This document shows positions 1-34,786 of a stretch of 34,786 nt of DNA, in pieces. The stretch covers positions 1 to 34,786 of the forward strand of contig JANYDO010000159.1 of NCBI GenBank assembly GCA_025363605.1, in the 5' to 3' direction. The notes beneath the pieces are model-generated. The model did not search any database, was not told the origin of the DNA, and saw only the letters and a list, made by a program, of their open reading frames with translations. The stretch comes from Candidatus Kapaibacterium sp. (GTDB lineage: Bacteria > Bacteroidota > Ignavibacteria > Kapaibacteriales > UBA4661). The stretch's first letter is position 1; each line of letters begins with the position of its first letter. The position numbers were made by a program, and so were the translations under genes.

Positions 1-141
1 AGTGATACCGAACCCAACAAATAAAAACCTCCGTTTGAGGTAGTGGGGTGTTCGGCGAGAATAAGTGCCTCCCGCTCGGTTGGAAAAATTGTGCAAGGGC
101 GGTGCGGAGTCTTCGGAGCGCCGTTCATTTTACCCTTGCAC
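1..141. repeat. Terminal direct repeat identical to 34646-34786 (circular-contig overlap)
   Basis: agtgataccgaacccaac...tttacccttgcac occurs at both window ends, 141 nt exact by eye. Confidence 0.95.
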
Positions 142-212
142 GATTTTTAGCGGAGTCTTCGGAGCGACAACCGAGCTATCTTGCACTTATGAAGCCGGAC
201 CACCCCACTACC
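39..212 (+). repeat. Nested palindromic element A (about 174 nt)
   Basis: Outer arms GGTAGTGGGGTG (39-50)/CACCCCACTACC (201-212), ATAAGTGC (61-68)/GCACTTAT (183-190), CTCGGTT (75-81)/AACCGAG (169-175), core AAAAATTGTGCAAGGG (84-99)/CCCTTGCACGATTTTT (133-148) with a 33-nt loop. Confidence 0.85.
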
Positions 213-294
213 GGAACCGACAAAGCCGACTGGCACTTGCCGACGTGCAAAAAAATTGCGTGAGCCGTAACAACCACAAAGCCGATGAATGAAA

Positions 295-9435: not shown

Positions 9436-9825
9436 TGATGTAGGTATGATAAGCAAGCCGTTGTACAATAATGGCATTACCAGCCCCCAGTAGAAGTATT
9501 CCTTGAGTTCGGTAGTGATGTGGTGATGGGAAGTGTTACCGTTATGAGAAGAATCGTCGTGAGATTTGTAGAAGATGACGAAAGGGGAATAATTCTAAAG
9601 AAGAGGAAGGTTCGGGGGCAGGGCTTCTTTTTTGGTCCGAGTGTTGTATATTTGCGTCTGCAAACTAAACGACAACGATTCCAGAAGCCTGACGAAAGAA
9701 TGCAACTCGCGCTGCGAAAGCCTCAAAGGAGCAAAACCGCTAAAGTTTACAAAGTTTATAGTTGTTTACGTTATTTAAGAGTTTAGTGCGGCGCGAACGT
9801 GTTGGAAAACAAGAACTTGTAAATC

Positions 9826-10003
9826 TTTGCGGTAGTGAATCTTGCGTTTGCGGTAGTGAATCTTGCGTTTGCGGTAGTGAATCTTGCGTTTGCGGTAGTG
9901 AATCTTGTGAAAATTTTATGTTTGCGGTAGTGAATCTTGCGTTTGCGGTAGTGAATCTTGCGGCGATTTTTTGATTTTTGCGTTTGCGGTAGTAAATCTT
10001 GTG
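9826..10003 (+). repeat. Seven 21-bp iterons (probable replication origin)
   Basis: TTTGCGGTAGTGAATCTTGYG at 9826, 9847, 9868, 9889, 9921, 9942, 9983 (last copy has GTAGTAAATC), directly upstream of rep. Confidence 0.93.
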
Positions 10004-12577: not shown

Positions 12578-13054
12578 GTTGTCCTTTCGCTATCCTTTTC
12601 CTCACGCTTTTTTATCATACGCCTCTGTCTTTTGTCGAGACTTTCCATAGTAATCGTTTTCAAACGCAACTAAACTCAAACAGGTTGAATTATTCAAAAT
12701 TAGTACTTGAATTTGCTGTGCAATAAATCGGGACTTCATTCTCTGCATACGTCTGATTGTTCTACTATCACCGATTCGCCTGCCCACTCCTTTCGCGCCC
12801 GTCGCGCTCTCTGCGGGGCGGTGTGGCAACGGTCGGCGGTACTCTTTCGGCTGCAAGCCGCTTTCCGCGCTCCCCCGAAAACCTTTGTTCCTATCGTGTA
12901 CCTTCCGTTTGGGGGAATCGCTCCAAGCAGCTTGCGTTTGTTTTTTCTACCGCCGCCGTGCAACAGAGGAAGCGGCATACTTACGGCGGGCTTAATGTTA
13001 TGGCTTCCGCTTTGCTCCGCCACGCCCTGCGGCAGCAGGTATTTGTTGTTGTCG

Positions 13055-13233
13055 GGGGCAGGGCAGTGGGCGGCGAAAAAATGCAAAGATACGGCGGTCG
13101 GTCGAAGACTTCCTAAAAATCAAAATGCAAGGGTAGTACAGAGCGCTTCCGGCTTTGCCTCACGCGCCCTTGCATTTCGATTTTTCCCACCGTAAGAAGC
13201 ATTTTTCGTTCTCGCCGCCCACTGCCCCGCCCC
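13055..13233 (-). repeat. Nested palindromic element B (about 179 nt), related to element A in inverse orientation
   Basis: Outer arms GGGGCAGGGCAGTGGGCGGCG/CGCCGCCCACTGCCCCGCCCC (20/21); core AAAAATCAAAATGCAAGGG (13115-13133)/CCCTTGCATTTCGATTTTT (13167-13185), 33-nt loop. Confidence 0.85.
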
Positions 13234-13307
13234 CTCTTCCGGCGGTTTTTTGTTTTTCTCGCGGTCGGTGCGGTTTTTTCTTTCTCTTTTTTTATTGAGG
13301 TGTTGTT

Positions 13308-13469
13308 ATGTCTCTTGTCCTTATTCCCGCCGATGTTCTGGAATCCATGTTGGATTCCGTCATCACTAATGATGAAGCAGGCTTTGTCATGGATTGCGAT
13401 GTGCCGGATGAAGTGATTCCGGCATTGGATTACATTTTGTGGAATAAGTTGTGCGAAGAAGAAGATTGA
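13308..13469 (+). CDS. Small acidic protein (53 aa)
   Basis: MSLVLIPADVLESMLDSVITNDEAGFVMDCDVPDEVIPALDYILWNKLCEEED; SD-like gaggtg upstream; below the ORF-track cutoff. Confidence 0.55.
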   Translation: MSLVLIPADVLESMLDSVITNDEAGFVMDCDVPDEVIPALDYILWNKLCEEED

Positions 13470-13793
13470 TGTTTCGTTCCCTGTCCGTTTCGGGCGGGGC
13501 TTTCGCGCGGTATTGCGTGGGCTGTTCTCCTCGCCGTCCTCGTCGCCCTGCCCCACAGGTCGTTCCGTCTCGTCCCTCGTCTCTCTCTCCCTCGGCATTT
13601 GTTGTTGTTGCCCGAAGGGGCGAATGCCCAATTTTGATAGAGCTAAACGACAGGTCAGGGACGAATGGCTTGCTGACGAATCTTCGTATTTTTTCTGCTT
13701 ACTATCTTGTGTTGCCCTTGACAAGAGTATGAAGACCAAGCATCAACGGTAGTAATGAATAGAGCGCTAAGAAAAATTTTCCTAGTTACACCT

Positions 13794-14528: not shown

Positions 14529-17500
14529 TTATTTAGCAATAATCATTTTACGAACAGCGGTGCGCTGTCCTGCTCTCAAGCGGTAGGTATATACCCCCGA
14601 AGATAAGCGTTCCGATGTCAGAATAAAGGAATATCGCCCTGCTTTCATACGCCCATTCGTTACGACAGCTACCTCACGCCCCAAAACGTCGAATACTCTC
14701 AATGAAACATCTTCCTCACTTGGTAGTGAAAAAGCAATTTCTGTATCGTCGGTAAACGGATTAGGATGATTTTGCTCAAGTGTAAAATCATATTGTTCAG
14801 TTTCGTTTGCCAGTTCGCTGCTCTGATACCCTGCTGTAAGTGTGCCGGAAGATTTTGTATTAAAAGCCACTACTGACGAAGGAAGCGCTTCAATAAACCG
14901 TGTTATCACTGATTCTACACCTTGGGCATCGCGCATAGTCAGTTTCAGGTTCACACCACCTATTCCATTTGTCGGCATGGTGAAGGTGAATGTCTCTCCT
15001 CCACTGCCTACCACACCGGAGACGGCTTGATTACCCGGCATAGTCTGCGCAGACCATTGATACAAAAATGGTGGTTGCCCTGTGCAAGAGGAAGCTGAGT
15101 ATGCTCCCGGGTCTCCTACTCGTACCCGTGCCGGTCCTGTTACTGTCGGGTACACCGATGACGTATAGAGGTTAGCAATTTTAGGTCCTGTCAGTCCAAT
15201 AACCCGCGACATATTTTGTGTGTCTGTCCCAATTGTAACGGGACGCGACTGCAAGGGACCGCCAACACTCATTTGGTCAGTGACCGTAACTGCAATGCTC
15301 GGATTCGACCAATAGGGAATGCGTTCCGCCGTCCCGTATCCAGTTCCGCCACCGTGAAACATGATAGTACCGGTTGTGAATCGTGTCGGTGTATTATCCA
15401 CAAGGCGCATACCGACATCAATAAATCCTTGCCCATCCGGGAAAGGCGATCCACCTGCGCCGGTAAAAGCTCCCGGTTCATGGTCGCCTTGAGCAAGATG
15501 TCCAATTTCGTGTAAAACAATGTATGCCAGACCTTCTGGACGGTTCCCTTGAGCATACGCAACCCCAGGCAGTTGCATTGAAACGGTAGAGATAGGAGCT
15601 TTGCTTGGCAAAGTACCACTAAGAGAAGTAGCGCCGTTATAGTTGGGCCAATCAAAAACCATGATAAGATCTGCATTGAGTTTTTCTCGTAATTGGGATA
15701 TTCTTGATTTTGGATTATCAAGATACCGATCAATAACGCCTAAAACAGCCCCTTCCCTCAGAACTTGAGAAACCGGGATGTTCAATTCGGCGTTAGTGAC
15801 AAGTTCACCGTCAGGATTCGCATATTTTGTTGTTAGGTGATTAATGCCACTGTTTTTGAATACGGGGTCATAAAAACGTAAACTTTCACGAATTCTATCC
15901 TCCACCGTTTTCCTTACTTTCGCCAGTTCATCCCGTGCAGCTTCAGTATAGATTGCCATAACAGAGATGGTATCTACCTTTTGCGGGCAGGAAACGAACT
16001 GCGCTATTACGGGAACATTTACCGTTTTACCATCAAAGATATGGCTGATAACTCCTGTGCGTGTTGGATTTCCTTCATATGGTACGGTTATGGTGAGAGG
16101 AAGGGTAATTTGGGCATTACCCGAAACTGATAATTGACAAATATTGACACCTTCACTACAACTGAAGGTGACACTGACACCATTAGGAAGCCCCTTTGTA
16201 GTCTGCAGCAAAAATCCTGGTGGTGCCGAAATACGAAGGATTTGATTCGCTCCGGTCGGGGTAATTTCTAAGTTGTAGTTAAATGTCCCCGACGCAGAAA
16301 ATGCGTTTACCGAAGCAATAAAAGTAATCGGGTTGGGGTCTGCTCTGAAGATATTTGTTTCCGCTCGCCCGCGCACTGTCATTACGGTTCCGGTTGTTCC
16401 GCTTGCGGTATGCGTTACTGTGAGTGTTCCCGTCTGCCCTACTGCTGTGGGTAAATATTGCATTTCAATTGTTACCAATCCACTGGTTTGTCCCAGAGGT
16501 GGTGTGAATACAAACGAATTTGTTTGGAACGGCTCCGGCATCGGGGTATTGAGTATTTGTAGTTTCCGTGCCGAAAACCGACTAGGCAATGGTATCGTTA
16601 TTGGTCCCGAGATATTTTGCCATCGCAAAAGATAGGTTGCGGTCGAAGTGTTGTTGATACCGACTGTTCCGAAATCCAGTGTTTGGGGCGTGAGTTCAAT
16701 AAGCACAGGCGGGTTCTTTGCTGTTAGCATGAGCTTTAGTGTTGCGCTTGTACCGTTACCGTTATGCAAGATATTAGGGTTCAGTGTTCCGGCAGCTATC
16801 GGTGAATGCTGGATTTCCAAAGCAAATGATCCGTTATAACCTTGCGGTGTGAGCATAAGTGAACCACTTTGGAATGCGCCTCCGGGTAACAGACGGGCGC
16901 TTATATTTGTGGGTAGCGTGAGGGTTATCGGCGCAGTGCAATTCCGATAGGTAAGTGAATATGTGTTGGTCGAAGAAGCGCCAACAAACACCGTTCCTAG
17001 AGAAAGTATATCCGGCACAACGTCTAACACTACAGACGGTTTTGTCGCCGTCAGCACCAAATTATCACTATCCACCGTGCGCGGGTCCCCGCCGTCGGCA
17101 AGGTGCGTGAGTGTTATGTTCGACGCTTGGGCAATCGTTGGCGTGTAGCGCACCCATAGTTGTAAGTCCGTTGTGGCTGCGGTGGCGGGCTGCACGGTCG
17201 GCAGCGTGAGCGTCTGCCCTGCCGTTGTCCATGTGCCACTTGAAACTTGAGCGATTGCAAAGTCATTTCCCGCCGGAACAGCCACCGAAATCGTGCTTGC
17301 CGTGATATTACGGTAGGTCATCGTGTAGCCATAATACCGCGTTTGCCCTAAATCTATCTGCCCGAAGTGTATGCTTGGTTGTGCTACATTCACCATCGGC
17401 GCAAGTCCTGAGCCTCGGAGCGTCAAGCGTACACTGGCAGCAGTGGTAATATTATCAGCAAGAGTGCTTGTGTGATTCAGATTCACACTCACATTGCCGC

Positions 17501-20500
17501 CGCGCACGGGTACAAACCGCACCCAAAACGTTGCCGTACCACTCGCAGGTGCAGGCTGTGTGCCGCCAACAGTCAAGGTGATACTTTCGGTGGTGGTGAA
17601 AACACCATTTTCACTGACGGAGGTGAGGAACGCCGAATGATTGGTAGCGCTCATAACAATAGTGTTTGTGGTAATATCATCGTAGCGCAGCGTATAGGCA
17701 CGGGTTACGGGCGCAAGTACAAACTGTGAGCCAAAGTCAAGCGTCGCACTGGTGAGCGTAAGACGAGCGGGCGGTTGCTGTACGGTGAAGGTACGGTTGC
17801 CAGTATAGGTCGCAATCGCCGTGCCATTGGTGGAATTGAGTGTCATAGCGTACGTTCCAAGCGTAGAAACCACGAATGGATTGAAGTAGAGTTTTCCATA
17901 ATCGGCAAGTTGGGCATTGAGGTTTGCTGTTGTGGTCAGTTCTGCAAGAGAAAATGTATTGCTTGTGGTTCCCAATGCAGTATGACGTACATTGTTAATC
18001 GTCAGGTCAACCGTTCCTCCCCACAAGTGGGTGCGCGTACCACGCACATCGCGTAAGGTCACGTTTGCTTGGTCAACTTGTGGAGAGAACACATCAGCCA
18101 CATACAAACGTGTTGGCACATTGGCAAAATCTGCACGAACCGCCAAACCCGGACTAAGGCTTACGTCATAAGTTCCACGCAAAAACCTATCCAATATTTC
18201 AAGCAGTGTGTCAATAATAGGATCTCCGGTCAATTCACTGCCTTTTTTCCAGCCGCCAAGTTTTGATTGATACGGACCGGGAAGGAGGACAGGCACTTGC
18301 GCCTTATAGACACCAAGCGACTGTCGGGCAAAAGCAACTGTCGCGGTAGAACTTGGAAATTCCGCGTTGGTCACAATCACCGCCAGCGAATCATAGCCAC
18401 CAAGATTATCAGTAGGGTTCCCAAAAGCATCAAAAAGATTCGCAGTAACAGAAATTGAGCCTCCGCGCGTGGTCATGGCGCTGGTGGAGATAACGAAATC
18501 TACGGTTACAAAACTCGATGGCGTAAGCGTAAAGGCTTTCGTCCCAAACGTATTTGCAGGGGTAACGCTGGAAACAGCAAGGTTGTATGCTCCGGCAATC
18601 GTGCAAACGGTAGATTGTGCACTGTACATTCCTGTTGAAAGCCGCGTGAGGGCAAGCGTTGCAGTCGAAGAGCCACCGGAGCGCGTATAGGTCAGTCGCC
18701 CAACACCATTATCGGTAAGATTCCCCGCAGCATCCTCGAAGCGGAGCGCAAAGGCAGGAACGACTGTTCCGGCTGTTACCGAGACAGGAACGCCGCTCAG
18801 GGTAACGCGGGCATCATTGCCACCCGTGACCGTGTAGGAGCGTGAGCCTGTTGTTGTGCCGATGCCGTCAATCCATAGCGAATACGTGCCACCAATGTCC
18901 ATGCGGGTTGCCGTTGCTGTGGAAACACCCGTGGAAGCGTATCTGAGACGGATAGTTCCCGTCGTTGCTCCTGTACTTTCTCCATAGCCAAGCACAGGCG
19001 AAGCAACATTGGTCAAATTGCCGAAGGTGTCGCGGAAGCGCACAGTAAAAGCATTCAGGTTTGTGCCGGAAACAACGCTTGTGGTCACATTCACAAATTC
19101 GGAGCTAACGGCTGCCGCACCACGTACAGTGAGATTTTCCGCAGCCGACGTACCGCCGCCCAACACAGGAGTATGCGCACGAATTTGATAGGTGCCGGAA
19201 ATCGTGATAAGACTTCCCGGAATGGTGACGGTCGCCATCGTCGGCGAGAGGAGCGAAAGTACGGCGAGGGTTGTTGTGACAGCGCCATTCTGAAAACGCA
19301 CGACGGTTGCCGTCGTGAAATATCCGCCGTAGAGCGTCAGCACGGCATCTTGTCCTGCTACAACGCTGACGGGTGCAATGGCGGCAAGCAGCGGTGCAGG
19401 ATTATTGACGGTAAGCGTCCGTGGGAGAGACGTGCCGCCGCCGGGCGTGGGATTCTCCACCACCACCGAATATATTCCTGCAAGTGGCTGTACGACTTGC
19501 GCCTTCAGGAGTGCGCCGGAAATGAACGAAACATTTTGCTGGTCAAGAGGTACACCATCCACGATGACACGCGATTCGGGCAGGAAGTTCGAGCCGACGA
19601 GCGAAAGTGTCCACGTGTTTGTGGTGGCGGTCGTCGTAACGGGTGCAATGGAACTCAGCGTCGGAGCGGGATTATTGACGGAGGCTTGCACCGTGAAGGT
19701 GCGTGTACCGCTTGTACTTGTCACACCCACAAGAGAGAGCGTATAGGAGCCTGTGCCAGTGAAAACGCTGCTTGCTTGGTATGTGCCAAGACTGAGGCGC
19801 GTAAACGTGAGTGTTCCGGTGGATGCGCCAAGAGGCGTACCACCGCGAAAGTCAACAGCGCCCGGATAATCTACCAAAGCATTTGCGGCATTGCGGAAGG
19901 TAACGGTAAATGCTTGAAGGTCGGTGACATCAATCGGGGTACGAACGCCTGCGAAGGCGGCTTTGAGTACAGGCGGTGGAATTGGTGTAGTTCCTGTACC
20001 ATTGAGGGCAAGCGTCGCCGTGCTTGCACCTGAAGCAAGTATTGCTCCGGCACTTGCGCCCGTCGCGCTTGGTGTGAAGCGCACAAAAACTGTCGTTGGC
20101 AAAATGGTATTGCCGACGGGAACGAGCGAAAGCGAGGCTTGCGTCGTAAAAGGGCTGCCAGTGAGCGAAAGCGAGAAGGACGCGCCGGAGGAAGTCAGCA
20201 CGAGCGCCTCAGTCAGTCCATCTCCATTCACTGAAAAACTTGCTGTGGAAACCGTTCCAAGTGTTACACTGCCAAAGTCGAGCGCCGAAGGTGTGAGCGT
20301 AATACGCGACGGCGGCAGTGTGACAAACGAAGAAGTAAGCGGTGATATGGTTTGATACGAGCGCACAGCGCCCGCACCATTGGAAGGAAAAATAACAACG
20401 GTATAACTTGTTTGCGGCGATAATCCTGTAAGTAAAAGGTTTGTGCCGGAGCCATCATAGACAATACGACTACCATCTGCCAAAGCGTTTGCCAAGGTAA

Positions 20501-23500
20501 TGTCACTGTTGACACCTGTGGGTGTTGTACCGTTCGCAGGGCTGTAACTTGGCGTACCGTTGGGGCGAACAACGACGATGTAGCTTTGTGCGCCACCTAC
20601 GGGCGGATTCCAAGCGATTGTTGCCGATGACGCATTGACTAACGAGAACACCAAGGTTGTAGCGGCTGCGGAAGGCGGAACGGCGAAGGGTTGGAAATTC
20701 ACGCCGTAAGCACTTGCACCACTAATGGTAACGGAAGTGGAAGACGGCACAAAAACATAGCCCGTAAGTGTCGGCGTAACGGTGTAAACGCCATTTGCCA
20801 ATGTGCTAAAGGAATATGCACCTACCGAAGAGGCACTTGTACTTTGCGTCGCCGCTCCTCCAAGCGTAACAACACCGCTTGCAATGCCGATACTGCCGAA
20901 GATACTATATTGATTTTGGCTTTGAATCCCCGCACCATTGACTGTTACGACGGCACTTGTTGCGTTGAGGCTCGAAACTGTGAGAGTGCTTGCATATCCT
21001 CCAATCACTGAGGGCGAAAAGCGAACAAAGATTTGTGTTGCGCCGAGTACGCCATTGGTAGGGGTAAGGCTCAGTACCGCTTGGGTTGTAAATGGTGTGT
21101 TGGTGAGAGAAAGGGATAGAGATGGATTTGCCGCCGTTACATTCACGGCTGCAAGGAGTGATGTTCCCGAAATAGTCAGACTTCCCGTCGAGACCGTACC
21201 GACGGTAACGCTCCCGAAATCGAGAGAGGCAGGAGTGATTTGCAGTTGAGGCAGTGCGGATGTGCTTTGCATTCCTGTAAGCGGGGCGTTTATCTGGTAC
21301 GACCGCATAGCACCGCTACCATTGGAAGGAAAAACGACGACGGTATAACTTGTTTGCGGTGAGAGTCCCGTAAGTGAAACACTTGTACCGGAGCCGTCAT
21401 ACACAATACGGCTACCGTCTGCCAGAGGGCTTGCCAGTGTAAAATTGCTGTTTACGCCTGTGGGTGATGTGCCATTCTGGGGCGTGTAGCTCGGAGTGCC
21501 ACCAGCGCGAACAACGACAATATAATTTTGCGCTCCGCCTACGGGCGGATTCCACGTAAGGGCTGCGGAGGAAGCACCAACCGATGAAAACGTCAGCACG
21601 GTAGCCGGAGCCGGAGGTGCGGCAGCAAAGGTTTGGAAGTTTATGCCCGAAAGACTTGTGCCGCTAATCGTAACAGAAGTAGAGGACGGCACAAAAACAT
21701 AGCCTGTAAGCGTTGGCGTAATGGTGTATGTGCCATTTGCTAAACCGCTAAAAGAGTATGCGCCAGCAACAGAAGCCGTGGTAGAGCTTGTTGCTGTGCC
21801 GGAGAGGGCGAGGCTTGCACCATTTATACCACTCATGCCGGAGATTGCATAAGAGACATCAGTTCGTGGGAGAGTGCTATATCCCGTCATTCGATAGACG
21901 TTGTTATTAAGTCCCGGCACTCCCGTAGTCGCAAAGATACTTGTTGAGTTTGCGGCAAAAGCTGTCAATTTTGCATCGAGCAACGGATTAGAGTCAACAA
22001 TTTTTTTCCATGTTATGCCATCATCCGAAGAATAATAAACTCCCGCAGATTCAGTTGCAGCAAAGACAGCTCCATCACCTTGTACCAATTTACAGCCGGT
22101 TGTTGGTTGTGTTGGCAAGACCGTAACCTGTTGCCAAGAATTACCATTATCCGTAGAACGGTAGATTTTACCACTACTTGCATATGCAAGAACTCGTGTA
22201 CCATTACAAATGATAGAATTGATTGTTTCGGTCGAACTCTCAGCCTTTACATTTGTCCACGAATTGCCATTATCAAGTGAGCGGAATATGCCACGGTTGC
22301 CCACAACGAAAACAGTTGTGCCTTGCACATCAGTATCAAAGATAAAAAAGTCAAGATACCTATTTGGCACCGTCCCGTAGCTTGGTAGATTGTTGTCAAC
22401 TTTTGCCCATGAAACACCGTTATCAAGTGTACGGTAGATATGATCATTGGCTACCGCAATAAAAATGCTGTTCCCATCACCTGCCATTGCCGTACCGTAC
22501 ACACCCGTTACACCTGATGCTCGTGCCGCCGGAGAAGGTGGTGTGCGGAGTGGTTGATAGGATTGTAGGAAAGGATATTGTAAAGCATTTACCGAATCAT
22601 TGCAGAAATGTTCGAGATTCCAAACAATCGAACCGTTTTCAAAATCACCAAATCGAGGATAAACATAGCAAGAAAATGCAGCCCCGGAAATAGTCGTTTG
22701 TTTTCTATACAACGGGGAATGTCGTATAAAAACAGGATATTTCTGTGCTGGCTGTGTCGTTCCATTTGCGTCAATGTACGCACTACGGGATAGACTGACA
22801 AACCATCCGTAGCCAGGAATTGGATCTAGTGCAGAACTGGACATTGCTTTGGCTATAACGGCAAAAACGGCATCCTCGTCGTTATTTACTTGTGGCAGTG
22901 TGCTTTTATCTCCATTAACAAGTGCGAGCAATTCAGGTGCAGGGTCAAGTGTAAGCTCAGAATGAGCAGCTAGTATAAAATTGTAGTCTTCATCTATTAT
23001 CTCAGGAAAACTGGTGGATTTGAATGTACCGAAGCGAGGGATAGTGTATTGGTTATTCAAGGCTTTAGTCAGAACATTATACACACGACGTTCAGCATCC
23101 ACGCCATCTTTAATACCCCGCAGCAAGGCAACCGATTGAATAAGTTGGTCATAGTTAGTAGGAATTTGCACATCATCCCAAGTTAAAGCAACTAAACGCG
23201 CTGCTGATGGTGCGGAACCAACAAAGTCTATACGGCTCCATGTTGTGCCGTTGTTAAATGACCGAAAAAGCCCATCGCCAAACTGATAGGCAAAAGTAGC
23301 GGAGCCATTGAAATGAAAACTAAAAGGGGACACTGGTACAGACGGGTCGGATAGAGTAGTCCATGTTGTACCGTTGTCAAGCGAACGATGCAAAGTCCAA
23401 ACATTATTTGCCGATTTTGGTACAAAAATCGTATTGGCGTTTACTCCAATGGCACTAAAGCTAGGAAAAATATCAGATGGACTAATCAAACTGCTATTGC

Positions 23501-23621
23501 CTATCGGAGACCAAACGGGTTGAGCAGAAATTTTATCAGTGAACGAAGCACCAAGAAAAAGGCTTGCAAGGCAAAATACAACAAGCCTCAAAGCAGAAAA
23601 AGAACGAAACAATACGGTCAT
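14529..23621 (-). CDS. Giant (3030 aa) secreted T9SS substrate: BNR/sortilin-like repeats, FN3/CarboxypepD-reg-like modules, IPT/TIG-like and HYDIN-type (choice-of-anchor) domains, reprolysin-like metzincin, C-terminal sorting domain
   Basis: N-terminal signal peptide; SLDNGTTWTTL-type repeats; repeated LDFGSVTVGTVS; HEIGHLAQGDH (15480-15512) with downstream TGTIMFHGG; C-term NHPNPFTDDTEIAFSLPSEEDVSLRVFDVLGREV...GVYTYRLRAGQRTAVRKMIIAK. Confidence 0.92.
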   Translation of the reverse strand: MTVLFRSFSALRLVVFCLASLFLGASFTDKISAQPVWSPIGNSSLISPSDIFPSFSAIGVNANTIFVPKSANNVWTLHRSLDNGTTWTTLSDPSVPVSPFSFHFNGSATFAYQFGDGLFRSFNNGTTWSRIDFVGSAPSAARLVALTWDDVQIPTNYDQLIQSVALLRGIKDGVDAERRVYNVLTKALNNQYTIPRFGTFKSTSFPEIIDEDYNFILAAHSELTLDPAPELLALVNGDKSTLPQVNNDEDAVFAVIAKAMSSSALDPIPGYGWFVSLSRSAYIDANGTTQPAQKYPVFIRHSPLYRKQTTISGAAFSCYVYPRFGDFENGSIVWNLEHFCNDSVNALQYPFLQSYQPLRTPPSPAARASGVTGVYGTAMAGDGNSIFIAVANDHIYRTLDNGVSWAKVDNNLPSYGTVPNRYLDFFIFDTDVQGTTVFVVGNRGIFRSLDNGNSWTNVKAESSTETINSIICNGTRVLAYASSGKIYRSTDNGNSWQQVTVLPTQPTTGCKLVQGDGAVFAATESAGVYYSSDDGITWKKIVDSNPLLDAKLTAFAANSTSIFATTGVPGLNNNVYRMTGYSTLPRTDVSYAISGMSGINGASLALSGTATSSTTASVAGAYSFSGLANGTYTITPTLTGYVFVPSSTSVTISGTSLSGINFQTFAAAPPAPATVLTFSSVGASSAALTWNPPVGGAQNYIVVVRAGGTPSYTPQNGTSPTGVNSNFTLASPLADGSRIVYDGSGTSVSLTGLSPQTSYTVVVFPSNGSGAMRSYQINAPLTGMQSTSALPQLQITPASLDFGSVTVGTVSTGSLTISGTSLLAAVNVTAANPSLSLSLTNTPFTTQAVLSLTPTNGVLGATQIFVRFSPSVIGGYASTLTVSSLNATSAVVTVNGAGIQSQNQYSIFGSIGIASGVVTLGGAATQSTSASSVGAYSFSTLANGVYTVTPTLTGYVFVPSSTSVTISGASAYGVNFQPFAVPPSAAATTLVFSLVNASSATIAWNPPVGGAQSYIVVVRPNGTPSYSPANGTTPTGVNSDITLANALADGSRIVYDGSGTNLLLTGLSPQTSYTVVIFPSNGAGAVRSYQTISPLTSSFVTLPPSRITLTPSALDFGSVTLGTVSTASFSVNGDGLTEALVLTSSGASFSLSLTGSPFTTQASLSLVPVGNTILPTTVFVRFTPSATGASAGAILASGASTATLALNGTGTTPIPPPVLKAAFAGVRTPIDVTDLQAFTVTFRNAANALVDYPGAVDFRGGTPLGASTGTLTFTRLSLGTYQASSVFTGTGSYTLSLVGVTSTSGTRTFTVQASVNNPAPTLSSIAPVTTTATTNTWTLSLVGSNFLPESRVIVDGVPLDQQNVSFISGALLKAQVVQPLAGIYSVVVENPTPGGGTSLPRTLTVNNPAPLLAAIAPVSVVAGQDAVLTLYGGYFTTATVVRFQNGAVTTTLAVLSLLSPTMATVTIPGSLITISGTYQIRAHTPVLGGGTSAAENLTVRGAAAVSSEFVNVTTSVVSGTNLNAFTVRFRDTFGNLTNVASPVLGYGESTGATTGTIRLRYASTGVSTATATRMDIGGTYSLWIDGIGTTTGSRSYTVTGGNDARVTLSGVPVSVTAGTVVPAFALRFEDAAGNLTDNGVGRLTYTRSGGSSTATLALTRLSTGMYSAQSTVCTIAGAYNLAVSSVTPANTFGTKAFTLTPSSFVTVDFVISTSAMTTRGGSISVTANLFDAFGNPTDNLGGYDSLAVIVTNAEFPSSTATVAFARQSLGVYKAQVPVLLPGPYQSKLGGWKKGSELTGDPIIDTLLEILDRFLRGTYDVSLSPGLAVRADFANVPTRLYVADVFSPQVDQANVTLRDVRGTRTHLWGGTVDLTINNVRHTALGTTSNTFSLAELTTTANLNAQLADYGKLYFNPFVVSTLGTYAMTLNSTNGTAIATYTGNRTFTVQQPPARLTLTSATLDFGSQFVLAPVTRAYTLRYDDITTNTIVMSATNHSAFLTSVSENGVFTTTESITLTVGGTQPAPASGTATFWVRFVPVRGGNVSVNLNHTSTLADNITTAASVRLTLRGSGLAPMVNVAQPSIHFGQIDLGQTRYYGYTMTYRNITASTISVAVPAGNDFAIAQVSSGTWTTAGQTLTLPTVQPATAATTDLQLWVRYTPTIAQASNITLTHLADGGDPRTVDSDNLVLTATKPSVVLDVVPDILSLGTVFVGASSTNTYSLTYRNCTAPITLTLPTNISARLLPGGAFQSGSLMLTPQGYNGSFALEIQHSPIAAGTLNPNILHNGNGTSATLKLMLTAKNPPVLIELTPQTLDFGTVGINNTSTATYLLRWQNISGPITIPLPSRFSARKLQILNTPMPEPFQTNSFVFTPPLGQTSGLVTIEMQYLPTAVGQTGTLTVTHTASGTTGTVMTVRGRAETNIFRADPNPITFIASVNAFSASGTFNYNLEITPTGANQILRISAPPGFLLQTTKGLPNGVSVTFSCSEGVNICQLSVSGNAQITLPLTITVPYEGNPTRTGVISHIFDGKTVNVPVIAQFVSCPQKVDTISVMAIYTEAARDELAKVRKTVEDRIRESLRFYDPVFKNSGINHLTTKYANPDGELVTNAELNIPVSQVLREGAVLGVIDRYLDNPKSRISQLREKLNADLIMVFDWPNYNGATSLSGTLPSKAPISTVSMQLPGVAYAQGNRPEGLAYIVLHEIGHLAQGDHEPGAFTGAGGSPFPDGQGFIDVGMRLVDNTPTRFTTGTIMFHGGGTGYGTAERIPYWSNPSIAVTVTDQMSVGGPLQSRPVTIGTDTQNMSRVIGLTGPKIANLYTSSVYPTVTGPARVRVGDPGAYSASSCTGQPPFLYQWSAQTMPGNQAVSGVVGSGGETFTFTMPTNGIGGVNLKLTMRDAQGVESVITRFIEALPSSVVAFNTKSSGTLTAGYQSSELANETEQYDFTLEQNHPNPFTDDTEIAFSLPSEEDVSLRVFDVLGREVAVVTNGRMKAGRYSFILTSERLSSGVYTYRLRAGQRTAVRKMIIAK

Positions 23622-30374: not shown

Positions 30375-30983
30375 TCACGGCTCCACCCCCTTCACCACAA
30401 AATATTCCCAAAATTCCCGCGCAAGCCCATACAGCCGCTCACCTTCCTCACGGTCGCGGGGAATCTTGACAATATCAACCTTTGTACCTTGCAGCACACA
30501 TACTTTTGCTTCGTCCACGTCCAGCAGGTGCATCGTGTATTGTACCTGTGCTTCGGCACAAGCAAGACGTTTTTTGCTGAAGTACGACGAAACTTTTAGT
30601 TCGATAAGTATGGGTTTGGGGGTCGTGAAATTGACAGCGAAGCCGTCCGGGGTGCAGTAGTGCGGCAGTGGTTTTGCTTCGTGGTCAGTCTGGAAATAGA
30701 TTCCGTTGTTGCGTTGCATAACAAACCCGTCGAAGTGGTAGGTTTGCAGATACGCAAAAAAGTGCGGTTCAAAAAAATTACCGATTCGCGTTGCCTGATT
30801 GCCTTCAAACGCTGCCAGTCCTGTTTTCTCACGCCACACATCGCGGGGCGAAGTAAATTCGGAAAGTCCTGCTATGGCAGGGATTTCGCTTGCACCGATG
30901 CCTCTTTTGCGCATGACATTCCGTTTTGTGCGCGGTTCGTAGCGGATGGTGTTGGGGAACGTAAAGGGTTGTGGTCGTGGCAT
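30375..30983 (-). CDS. YqaJ-like viral recombinase/exonuclease
   Basis: RKRGIGASEIPAIAGLSEFTSPRDVWREKTGL...IGNFFEPHFF...CTPDGFAV...PILIELKVSS. Confidence 0.9.
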   Translation of the reverse strand: MPRPQPFTFPNTIRYEPRTKRNVMRKRGIGASEIPAIAGLSEFTSPRDVWREKTGLAAFEGNQATRIGNFFEPHFFAYLQTYHFDGFVMQRNNGIYFQTDHEAKPLPHYCTPDGFAVNFTTPKPILIELKVSSYFSKKRLACAEAQVQYTMHLLDVDEAKVCVLQGTKVDIVKIPRDREEGERLYGLAREFWEYFVVKGVEP

Positions 30984-31068
30984 GGCAGTTGAGAAAAGTT
31001 GTTCTGGTTTGTATAAAAATTGCCCCACGCTTGGGCGTACGCTGTGGCGTGGGGCGGTGAGTGAGTGG

Positions 31069-31575
31069 TTAGTACAGTGGGCGAACATCAAAGGACTTTG
31101 CAAAGCCCATATCTACTTTGACTTTTTCCGTGTAAGTAATCTCCACGGGCGTTCCTTGCGGCAGTTCTGAGCATTGCGATACAAGAATTTTTGCACCACA
31201 AATCCAGACTTGTTTTGCGGCATCAATCCACGATGCACACTCAATCGGTTTCACTTCGCCATTGTCTTTTTTGAAAATGGTTTTCATTCCCAAATAGACA
31301 CCGCGCACCGTTTCGCCTGTTGCATCAAACTCGCGGTACTTTGCGTTCAATGCGATTCCGCTTTCCATTGCTTCCAGCTTTTGCAAGGAATCCTCAATAG
31401 CGTTCAGGCGCTCTTTGCTGATGAGAACAGGCGACGCGCTGAGTTCGGTTTCTTTCTCGCGCCCGTCGCTCGTGACAGCATCCAGCGGCGTGAGTGCTTC
31501 AGTTTCTTTGACTTGAGCAATTTGCTCGGTTTCTGTGTCGAATACTTCATCGTAGGTTGATTTTTTCGTAGCCAT
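31069..31575 (-). CDS. Hypothetical phage recombination-module protein
   Basis: MATKKSTYDEVFDTETEQIAQ...VWICGAKILVSQCSELPQGTPVEITYTEKV; between nuclease and coiled-coil genes. Confidence 0.7.
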   Translation of the reverse strand: MATKKSTYDEVFDTETEQIAQVKETEALTPLDAVTSDGREKETELSASPVLISKERLNAIEDSLQKLEAMESGIALNAKYREFDATGETVRGVYLGMKTIFKKDNGEVKPIECASWIDAAKQVWICGAKILVSQCSELPQGTPVEITYTEKVKVDMGFAKSFDVRPLY

Positions 31576-33668: not shown

Positions 33669-34025
33669 TCACGCTCCTTGATGAATCACTTGCCAAATGG
33701 ATAATTTTTGCCTTGTTGCTTCACGCAGCATTGAAGCTGAACCGAAGGATTTTCCATCCCAAATAAGGACAAGCGCCTCAGCATATTTCGCCATCTGACG
33801 ATTGCGAATTGGTCCAGCGGCAGCGCCAAACGTTTTCCAGTCCGGCAAAAAAATCGTGCAGGGCAAGTCCAATTTGGCGGCAATGATTTCCGCGAGAGCA
33901 TCCACGCCCAACGCTCCACCCGAAACGATTTCGGTGACAGAAGCAAAAAACGGTGCTTCTTTGAGTGCGCGGCGCACGATAGAAATATCACGAATGGAGC
34001 GGCTTCCGGCGATAATACATTTCAT
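33669..34025 (-). CDS. DUF2493 / YspA-type SLOG-family protein
   Basis: MKCIIAGSRSIRDISIV...TEIVSGGALGVDALAE...AAGPIRNRQMAKYAEALVLIWDGKSFGS. Confidence 0.88.
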   Translation of the reverse strand: MKCIIAGSRSIRDISIVRRALKEAPFFASVTEIVSGGALGVDALAEIIAAKLDLPCTIFLPDWKTFGAAAGPIRNRQMAKYAEALVLIWDGKSFGSASMLREATRQKLSIWQVIHQGA

Positions 34026-34191: not shown

Positions 34192-34629
34192 TCAACCATG
34201 CAACCAGTGGTATGAGGGCGCAATGTTAATCGTGCTACGCTGGAATTTACTGCGACGGTGCTGTGTGAGACGTTTATTTGCGCCGATGATACCAAGCCAA
34301 CTCCAAGCACTGCGCGGCGCTGTAAGGTCAAAGGGAAACGCTAGAGCAACACTAGGCGGCAATACAGGCACGGAAACGAAGTACACGCCGTCTTCTTGCC
34401 TCACAGCACAAGCATACCCAACACAGTCACCGGCACGGCGGGCGCATTTCTGGGCGCTCTGGCTATCAGTGAAATGCACCACACAAACCCAATCGGTGAA
34501 ACTATTGCGGCTGGGACGCAACTGCACTGCGCTTGGCTGCATTTGAGCAACGGCAGCACAGAAGGAAGCAAAATGCGGCGCATGGACGGCTTGACCGCTT
34601 GGGGAATGGTATTTTGTTACGCACTTCAT
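34192..34629 (-). CDS. Hypothetical protein, possible first gene of the leftward operon
   Basis: MKCVTKYHSPSGQAVHAPHFASFCAAV...SFTDWVCVVHFTDSQSAQKC; same direction as following genes. Confidence 0.4.
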   Translation of the reverse strand: MKCVTKYHSPSGQAVHAPHFASFCAAVAQMQPSAVQLRPSRNSFTDWVCVVHFTDSQSAQKCARRAGDCVGYACAVRQEDGVYFVSVPVLPPSVALAFPFDLTAPRSAWSWLGIIGANKRLTQHRRSKFQRSTINIAPSYHWLHG

Positions 34630-34645: not shown

Positions 34646-34786
34646 AGTGATACCGAACCCAACAAATAAAAACCTCCGTTTGAGGTAGTGGGGTGTTCGG
34701 CGAGAATAAGTGCCTCCCGCTCGGTTGGAAAAATTGTGCAAGGGCGGTGCGGAGTCTTCGGAGCGCCGTTCATTTTACCCTTGCAC
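34646..34786. repeat. Second copy of the 141-bp terminal repeat
   Basis: Identical to 1-141. Confidence 0.95.

Follow-up and report, generated by a model that had tools for sequence, protein, structure and literature searches.

The plasmid and its two nested hairpins

The window, by which we mean the whole 34,786-bp stretch of DNA analysed, is an entire contig (C338) from a 5.3-Mb metagenome assembly, and its host is an uncultured freshwater bacterium. An identical run of 141 bases at both ends, together with the window being the complete contig, indicates a circle of 34,645 bp, in which positions 34646-34786 duplicate the window start, including part of the element termed A below. The circle can be identified as a plasmid by its genes for a Rep_3 initiator, ParA, ParB, a small serine recombinase, an S24-type repressor and a YqaJ exonuclease, as well as by iteron-like repeats; the 21-bp direct repeats (TTTGCGGTAGTGAATCTTGCG) at 9817-10003, upstream of the Rep_3 gene, are probably the origin iterons. 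This small plasmid also carries a 3030-aa ORF (14529-23621) with fibronectin III, sortilin-like and type IX secretion sorting domains. A short dispersed repeat at 1336-1521 recurs on seven or more further contigs of this genome, and a ~400-bp repeat module (663-1272), partly tandem on the plasmid (795-910, 1097-1212), is also found at L159:2744-3172 and L183:103-733.

Two nested hairpins, element A on the plus strand and element B on the minus strand of the plasmid, are composed of the following parts.

32-219, plus strand (sense): element A, complete nested hairpin; its first part recurs at 34677-34786 owing to the overlapping ends of the circular contig
84-99, plus strand: 5' core arm of A, AAAAATTGTGCAAGGG, with the core GCAAGGG invariant in 10 copies
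100-132, plus strand: 33-nt apical loop of A, with a small hairpin followed by unpaired bases that end in TTTTA
133-148, plus strand: 3' core arm of A, CCCTTGCACGATTTTT; its TTG (136-138) is proposed as the -33 box
149-167, plus strand: side hairpin of A, looped out of the main stem within the promoter spacer
177-184, plus strand: proposed -7 box of A, TATCTTGC, in an internal loop; box type TAnnTTGY (PMC9723704)
13054-13234, minus strand (sense): element B, complete nested hairpin
13134-13166: apical loop of B, 33 nt
13128-13130, minus strand: proposed -33 box of B, TTG inside CCCTTGC
13098-13114, minus strand: side hairpin of B within the promoter spacer
13084-13091, minus strand: proposed -7 box of B, TATCTTTG, mostly in an internal loop
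12787-13301, minus strand: unit of ~550 bp around B

Folded as RNA, element A reaches -96 kcal/mol (z -7.4), with an equally good fold in none of 200 shuffles, and element B (13050-13238) reaches -100 kcal/mol (z -10.1). With DNA parameters the z-scores are -7.4 for A, -11.9 for B and -3.9 for a third subtype, C, indicating that one strand forms a stable large stem-loop. The nested hairpins and the shared 33-nt apical loop described in the first-pass annotation are therefore real, with pairing that extends to about 32-219 and 13054-13234. Folded as DNA, the sense strands of A and B are more stable than their antisense counterparts (-51 versus -47, -66 versus -58, -63 versus -54, and -60 versus -52), the asymmetry being slight in subtype C, which is without the side hairpin. 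The elements are 125-190 nt in length.

Element B aligns with A, outer arm to outer arm, when A is read on the plus strand and B on the minus strand. The loop residues CGGA..GCGC earlier thought to be retained in both copies are an artefact of the wrong orientation, as B needs to be reverse-complemented. The outer arms had been described as different, and parts of them prove to be alike once oriented (AGTGGG..CGGCGAGAA). The gap between AAAAAT and TGCAAGGG, given as 3 nt in both elements, is actually 2 nt in A and 5 nt in B, and the gap bases pair.

Copies of the element and conservation of its pairing

Copies were sought by pattern search, and a covariance model was then built from the core. 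This type of search, proposed in the first-pass annotation, recovered homologues: 10 distinct copies, assigned to subtypes A, B and C, in four of the eight genomes of one Candidatus Kapaibacterium genus, numbers that are lower bounds because the metagenome-assembled genomes are fragmented. Elements A and B reside on the window plasmid and at the corresponding positions of a relative of it, a plasmid in genome G006; a further B copy is chromosomal (contig C187, in the same genome as the window plasmid), and the five copies of subtype C belong to G000, G005, G006 (two) and G007. No copies were found in the other four genomes of the genus, and a phylum-wide scan of 396 genomes gave only chance-like matches outside it. 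A weak match in G008 (L221) proved to be an ordinary terminator-like hairpin; viral contigs scanned with a loose pattern yielded only chance hairpins, at which the covariance model found nothing strong. Comparison with the Rfam covariance models, also suggested at the outset, matched the element to no known family, and a blastn comparison of element B with 72,556 plasmid records gave no match. Another family of palindromic repeats, GCAAGGGGCTAAAGCCCCTTGTTAAACAATGACTTACGCAACAAGGGGTTTCAACCCCTTGC, distinct from this element, is present in G007, G005 and G003 (e.g. L156, L153, L157); its copies in G007 number about 20 or more.

All copies share GCAAGGGCG, an apical CG/CG pair and ACCCTTGC without change; below this invariant core the sequence varies and the pairing is kept. 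The apical core is thus common to the three subtypes, and the arms pair via compensatory changes. In the core helix of the 10 copies, 17 cells are changed on both sides compared with 5.4 in shuffles, and the covariation score is 0.319 compared with at most 0.12 when the partners are slid. The earlier suggestion of selection on structure is supported by these values, which amount to support rather than proof since the alignment includes close relatives.

Conservation between the window plasmid and its relative in G006 is high for both elements and their adjoining ORFs (90-100%). Element A is 95-100% identical and its left flank is likewise well kept, whereas stretches of its right flank are only 65-93% identical; the region of the 145-aa ORF next to A is 97-100% conserved. 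Element B is 90-98% identical over aligned bases, and the region of its adjoining ORF (13300-13479) is 98-100% conserved. The ~550-bp unit around B recurs on the chromosome at 87% identity (C187), where it is truncated next to an IS3 insertion; this chromosomal copy abuts IS3 without an ORF and looks like a relic. Part of the flank of the unit is also found on contig C129, in which a composite repeat unit is fused to B-flank sequence and directly adjoins what appears by eye to be a leucyl-tRNA synthetase-like gene fragment.

Candidate promoter boxes and adjoining genes

The 3' arm of B contains TATCTTTG, and the same place is occupied by TATCTTGC in A and by TATTTTG in C. In an automatic search, in which each copy was folded as DNA, the main stem traced and the side branches dropped, the arrangement TTG-N21/22-TAnnTT(T)G was identified, by consensus only, on the folded 3' arm of 10 out of 10 sense folds and of none of the 10 antisense folds. 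Within the folds the TTG is paired and the -7 box is at an internal loop. Counted by hand along the helical path from the TTG of CCCTTGC to the -7 box, the spacing is 19 nt in A and B and 21 nt in C; the automatic value of 21-22 exceeds the hand count of 19 as its path takes in a few unpaired bases. In linear DNA the boxes of A and B are 36-38 nt apart (38 in A with its side hairpin), due to the side hairpin lying between them. The promoter of subtype C, being without this hairpin, would also work in double-stranded DNA. Shuffling of the arm produced the motif by chance in 0.3-2% of trials overall (0.003 for A, 0.010 for B, 0.014 for a C copy), figures that are not independent because the promoter was sought after the sequences had been seen and the subtypes share ancestry. 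Upstream of ORFs in these genomes the TAnnTTTG box is over-represented (14 occurrences, compared with 4 on the opposite strand and 6.1 +- 2.3 in shuffled sequence); no such enrichment was observed there for TATAAT or for the 7-nt box of A and C. The latter, TAnnTTGY, is a promoter type known from Flavobacterium and corresponds to motif SM5 of Flavobacterium psychrophilum (PMC9723704).

The genes adjoining the plasmid elements, or lying further in the same direction, are listed below.

34192-34629, minus strand: 145-aa ORF adjoining A, on the strand that folded A would transcribe
33669-34025, minus strand: SLOG / YspA-like gene with a DprA-related fold (PF10686, E 5e-10), the next gene after A in that direction
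30375-31103, minus strand: YqaJ / RecE-like exonuclease, in the same direction as the SLOG / YspA-like gene
13308-13469, plus strand: acidic 53-aa ORF adjoining B, on the strand that folded B would transcribe

In all three intact contexts the folded strand is the template of the adjoining gene, which starts at 34629 (minus) for A, at 13308 (plus) for B and at about 4829 (minus) in locus L162 for C, that is 48, 74 and ~284 nt beyond the stem base, respectively. T-runs and weak terminator-like hairpins are found between stem base and ORF. A family search with the 145-aa ORF next to A found none. The gene next to C, on the minus strand, belongs to a 5-kb module with SLOG-like, DnaJ-like and YqaJ genes, and the other side of C is occupied by a NikA-like ribbon-helix-helix gene of 74 aa that has a TATATTTG promoter of its own. 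One G006 contig (L210, L211; JACVZY010000028.1) holds the 5-kb module, with element C in it, in two copies ~29 kb apart. A stretch of 38-42 bp is nearly identical upstream of different genes on the window plasmid (34056-34097) and in the subtype C modules (L162:3774-3811).

A further observation concerns the adjacent-gene side of the subtype C loci, where ~930 bp contain only 2-5 T on the would-be template strand, with 37-41% A.

L162:3898-4828, L163:3735-4662, L166:3780-4737, L159 ~850-1880 and L253:3444-4077: T-poor stretches

These stretches are conserved across species at 75-84% identity with the absence of T kept: A/C, A/G and C/G changes are abundant among the copies compared, and changes to T are rare. 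As a consequence of the T absence, the opposite strand has almost no A and few stops. It seems to encode two proteins, one of them SLOG/DprA-like by eye, a frame for which no Pfam match was obtained. Such a strand is very unusual; limited searches found no precedent, and we know of none. The neighbours of A and B display only a mild trend of the same kind (the lowest coding-strand AT skews among the 26 window genes).

Taken from folds and motifs, the reading that we lean towards, with slightly better than even confidence, is that the A/B/C element is a candidate single-stranded-DNA promoter working in the manner of Frpo/ssi of F and ColIb-P9. On plasmid DNA in the single-stranded state, either entering a cell or exposed in replication, the hairpin would form, host RNA polymerase would bind the promoter rebuilt in the stem, and the polymerase would run down the stem and transcribe the adjoining gene with the folded strand as template; the transcript may also prime second-strand synthesis. 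In folded A and B the looped-out side hairpin would restore the normal box spacing, and in double-stranded DNA the separation of 36-38 nt would leave the promoter off. The plasmid could thus turn on genes while still entering a new cell. The neighbouring genes, which handle single-stranded DNA and recombination (YqaJ, SLOG), and the relaxosome-type NikA-like protein adjoining C are consistent with this role. Counting against it are the negative relaxase search (PF03432 in six genomes, and the scanned window ORFs), the opposite strands of A and B, the T-runs before the ORF, the absence of a side hairpin in C and the unenriched 7-nt box. With A and B on opposite strands, one transferred strand holds only one element in working orientation; this is no contradiction if either strand can be single or if each needs a priming site, and it is not predicted by conjugation alone.

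A broader proposition, which we regard as doubtful, is that these elements represent a single-strand-only promoter class beyond the enterobacterial Frpo, with a side hairpin that splits the spacer and with leading genes whose template is purged of thymine. The thymine purge near C (~930 bp) would then be an adaptation to expression from, or survival as, single-stranded DNA.

Alternative explanations and comparison with known systems

Among the other explanations, a structured RNA, i.e. a long hairpin in a leader or a small RNA that acts after transcription of either strand, survives best and is nevertheless unlikely. The compensatory changes would be expected of it, G-U pairs are more numerous in the A/B sense folds (4 versus 0, 5 versus 3, 5 versus 1, 7 versus 2), T-runs follow the hairpin on the antisense side, and the 550-bp unit containing B could be a transcription unit. 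On the other hand, no Rfam family matches, no promoter reads through C (each flanking gene has its likely promoter beyond it), and an RNA leaves unexplained the -33/-7 boxes of every copy and the side hairpin in the spacer. The G-U asymmetry was rejected as proof of strand, since it holds for A/B and fails for C. The 550-bp unit as a large noncoding RNA was also discarded, as it has no Rfam match and explained less.

The first-pass annotation had also proposed a mobile palindromic element, and a non-autonomous, MITE-like one would account for the copies on plasmid and chromosome and for the recurrence of the B unit and part of its flank (C187, C129). Like MITEs and other bacterial palindromic repeats, the elements are intergenic imperfect palindromes on both kinds of replicon; in contrast to these they are few, with diverged arms and a fixed gene context. 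With only 10 copies in four genomes, A and B keeping their places in the related plasmid, a conserved unit that varies from subtype to subtype, and neither target duplications nor empty sites seen, this origin is quite improbable.

We assign a similarly low probability to a recombination, transfer or priming site that acts as a single strand without transcription (oriT, attC-like or ssi). Such a site would agree with the strand-specific single-stranded-DNA fold and with the NikA-like gene beside C, and the opposite-strand A/B pair resembles paired ssi sites such as those of RSF1010. An integron attC site is likewise a strand-specific single-stranded-DNA hairpin with unpaired features; it differs in size, and no cassette array is present here. 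A relaxase search (PF03432) gave nothing above the cut-off in six genomes and none among the scanned window ORFs, for which reason an oriT, considered because of the NikA-like gene, was rejected; moreover, neither promoter boxes nor a constant gene-start position is predicted by such a site. A retron was discarded as no reverse transcriptase was found among the scanned window ORFs. A double-stranded operator, in which a regulator, for instance the ribbon-helix-helix protein, would bind nested inverted repeats, is very improbable: it would suit the invariant GCAAGGG/CCCTTGC half sites and the gene near C, but binding of a dimer needs neither 50-60 compensated pairs nor the strand preference of A/B.

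Of the three options offered by the first-pass annotation, namely a mobile element, a structured RNA and a single-strand DNA site, the last fits best, and the candidate single-stranded-DNA promoter can be compared with two known systems. The proposed boxes are those of Bacteroidota sigma-A promoters (TTG / TAnnTTTG, and the TAnnTTGY type SM5), with a folded-path spacing of ~21-22 (PMC9723704); the difference lies in the 36-38 nt between the A/B boxes in linear DNA. Frpo of the F plasmid is a single-stranded-DNA stem-loop in which -10/-35 boxes are rebuilt and from which leading genes are expressed early (PMC9849209); many conjugative elements have related promoters in their leading regions (PMC11541004). 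Promoters active on a single strand account for the expression of anti-defence and establishment genes by plasmids that have yet to become double-stranded, the well-studied examples being enterobacterial. If our reading is true, the principle has evolved or spread more widely, and the element would be a compact, testable part with a built-in switch between single- and double-stranded states. Others could be sought by folding one strand, removing side branches and looking for a 3'-arm promoter that points at a gene.

The F regions upstream of ssb and of an ORF taken to be ygeA (Frpo1/2), folded in the same way, form nested imperfect hairpins within ~355 nt; the gene, which is on the opposite strand, lies 20-46 nt from the base, and the transferred strand is the more stable one (-86 versus -79, -92 versus -82). 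The comparison is architectural, as the published sigma-70 boxes of F Frpo were not recovered by simple consensus. The earlier view that the element belongs to no named family is thus borne out for its sequence but not for its architecture, which matches the known Frpo/ssi class. The differences comprise the lack of detectable sequence similarity (no plasmid match for B), so that the element is not a member by sequence, Bacteroidota-type -33/-7 boxes instead of -35/-10, a length of 125-190 nt instead of ~355, a side hairpin in the A/B spacer, no known oriT or relaxase, and two copies on opposite strands. New here are the type of boxes, the side hairpin that splits the spacer, the group of hosts and, possibly, the T-poor template. 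Shared with Frpo/ssi are a long nested imperfect hairpin on one strand, stem-rebuilt boxes pointing from apex to base, A/T-rich inner arms, a steadier folded strand, and a gene just past the base for which that strand is the template.
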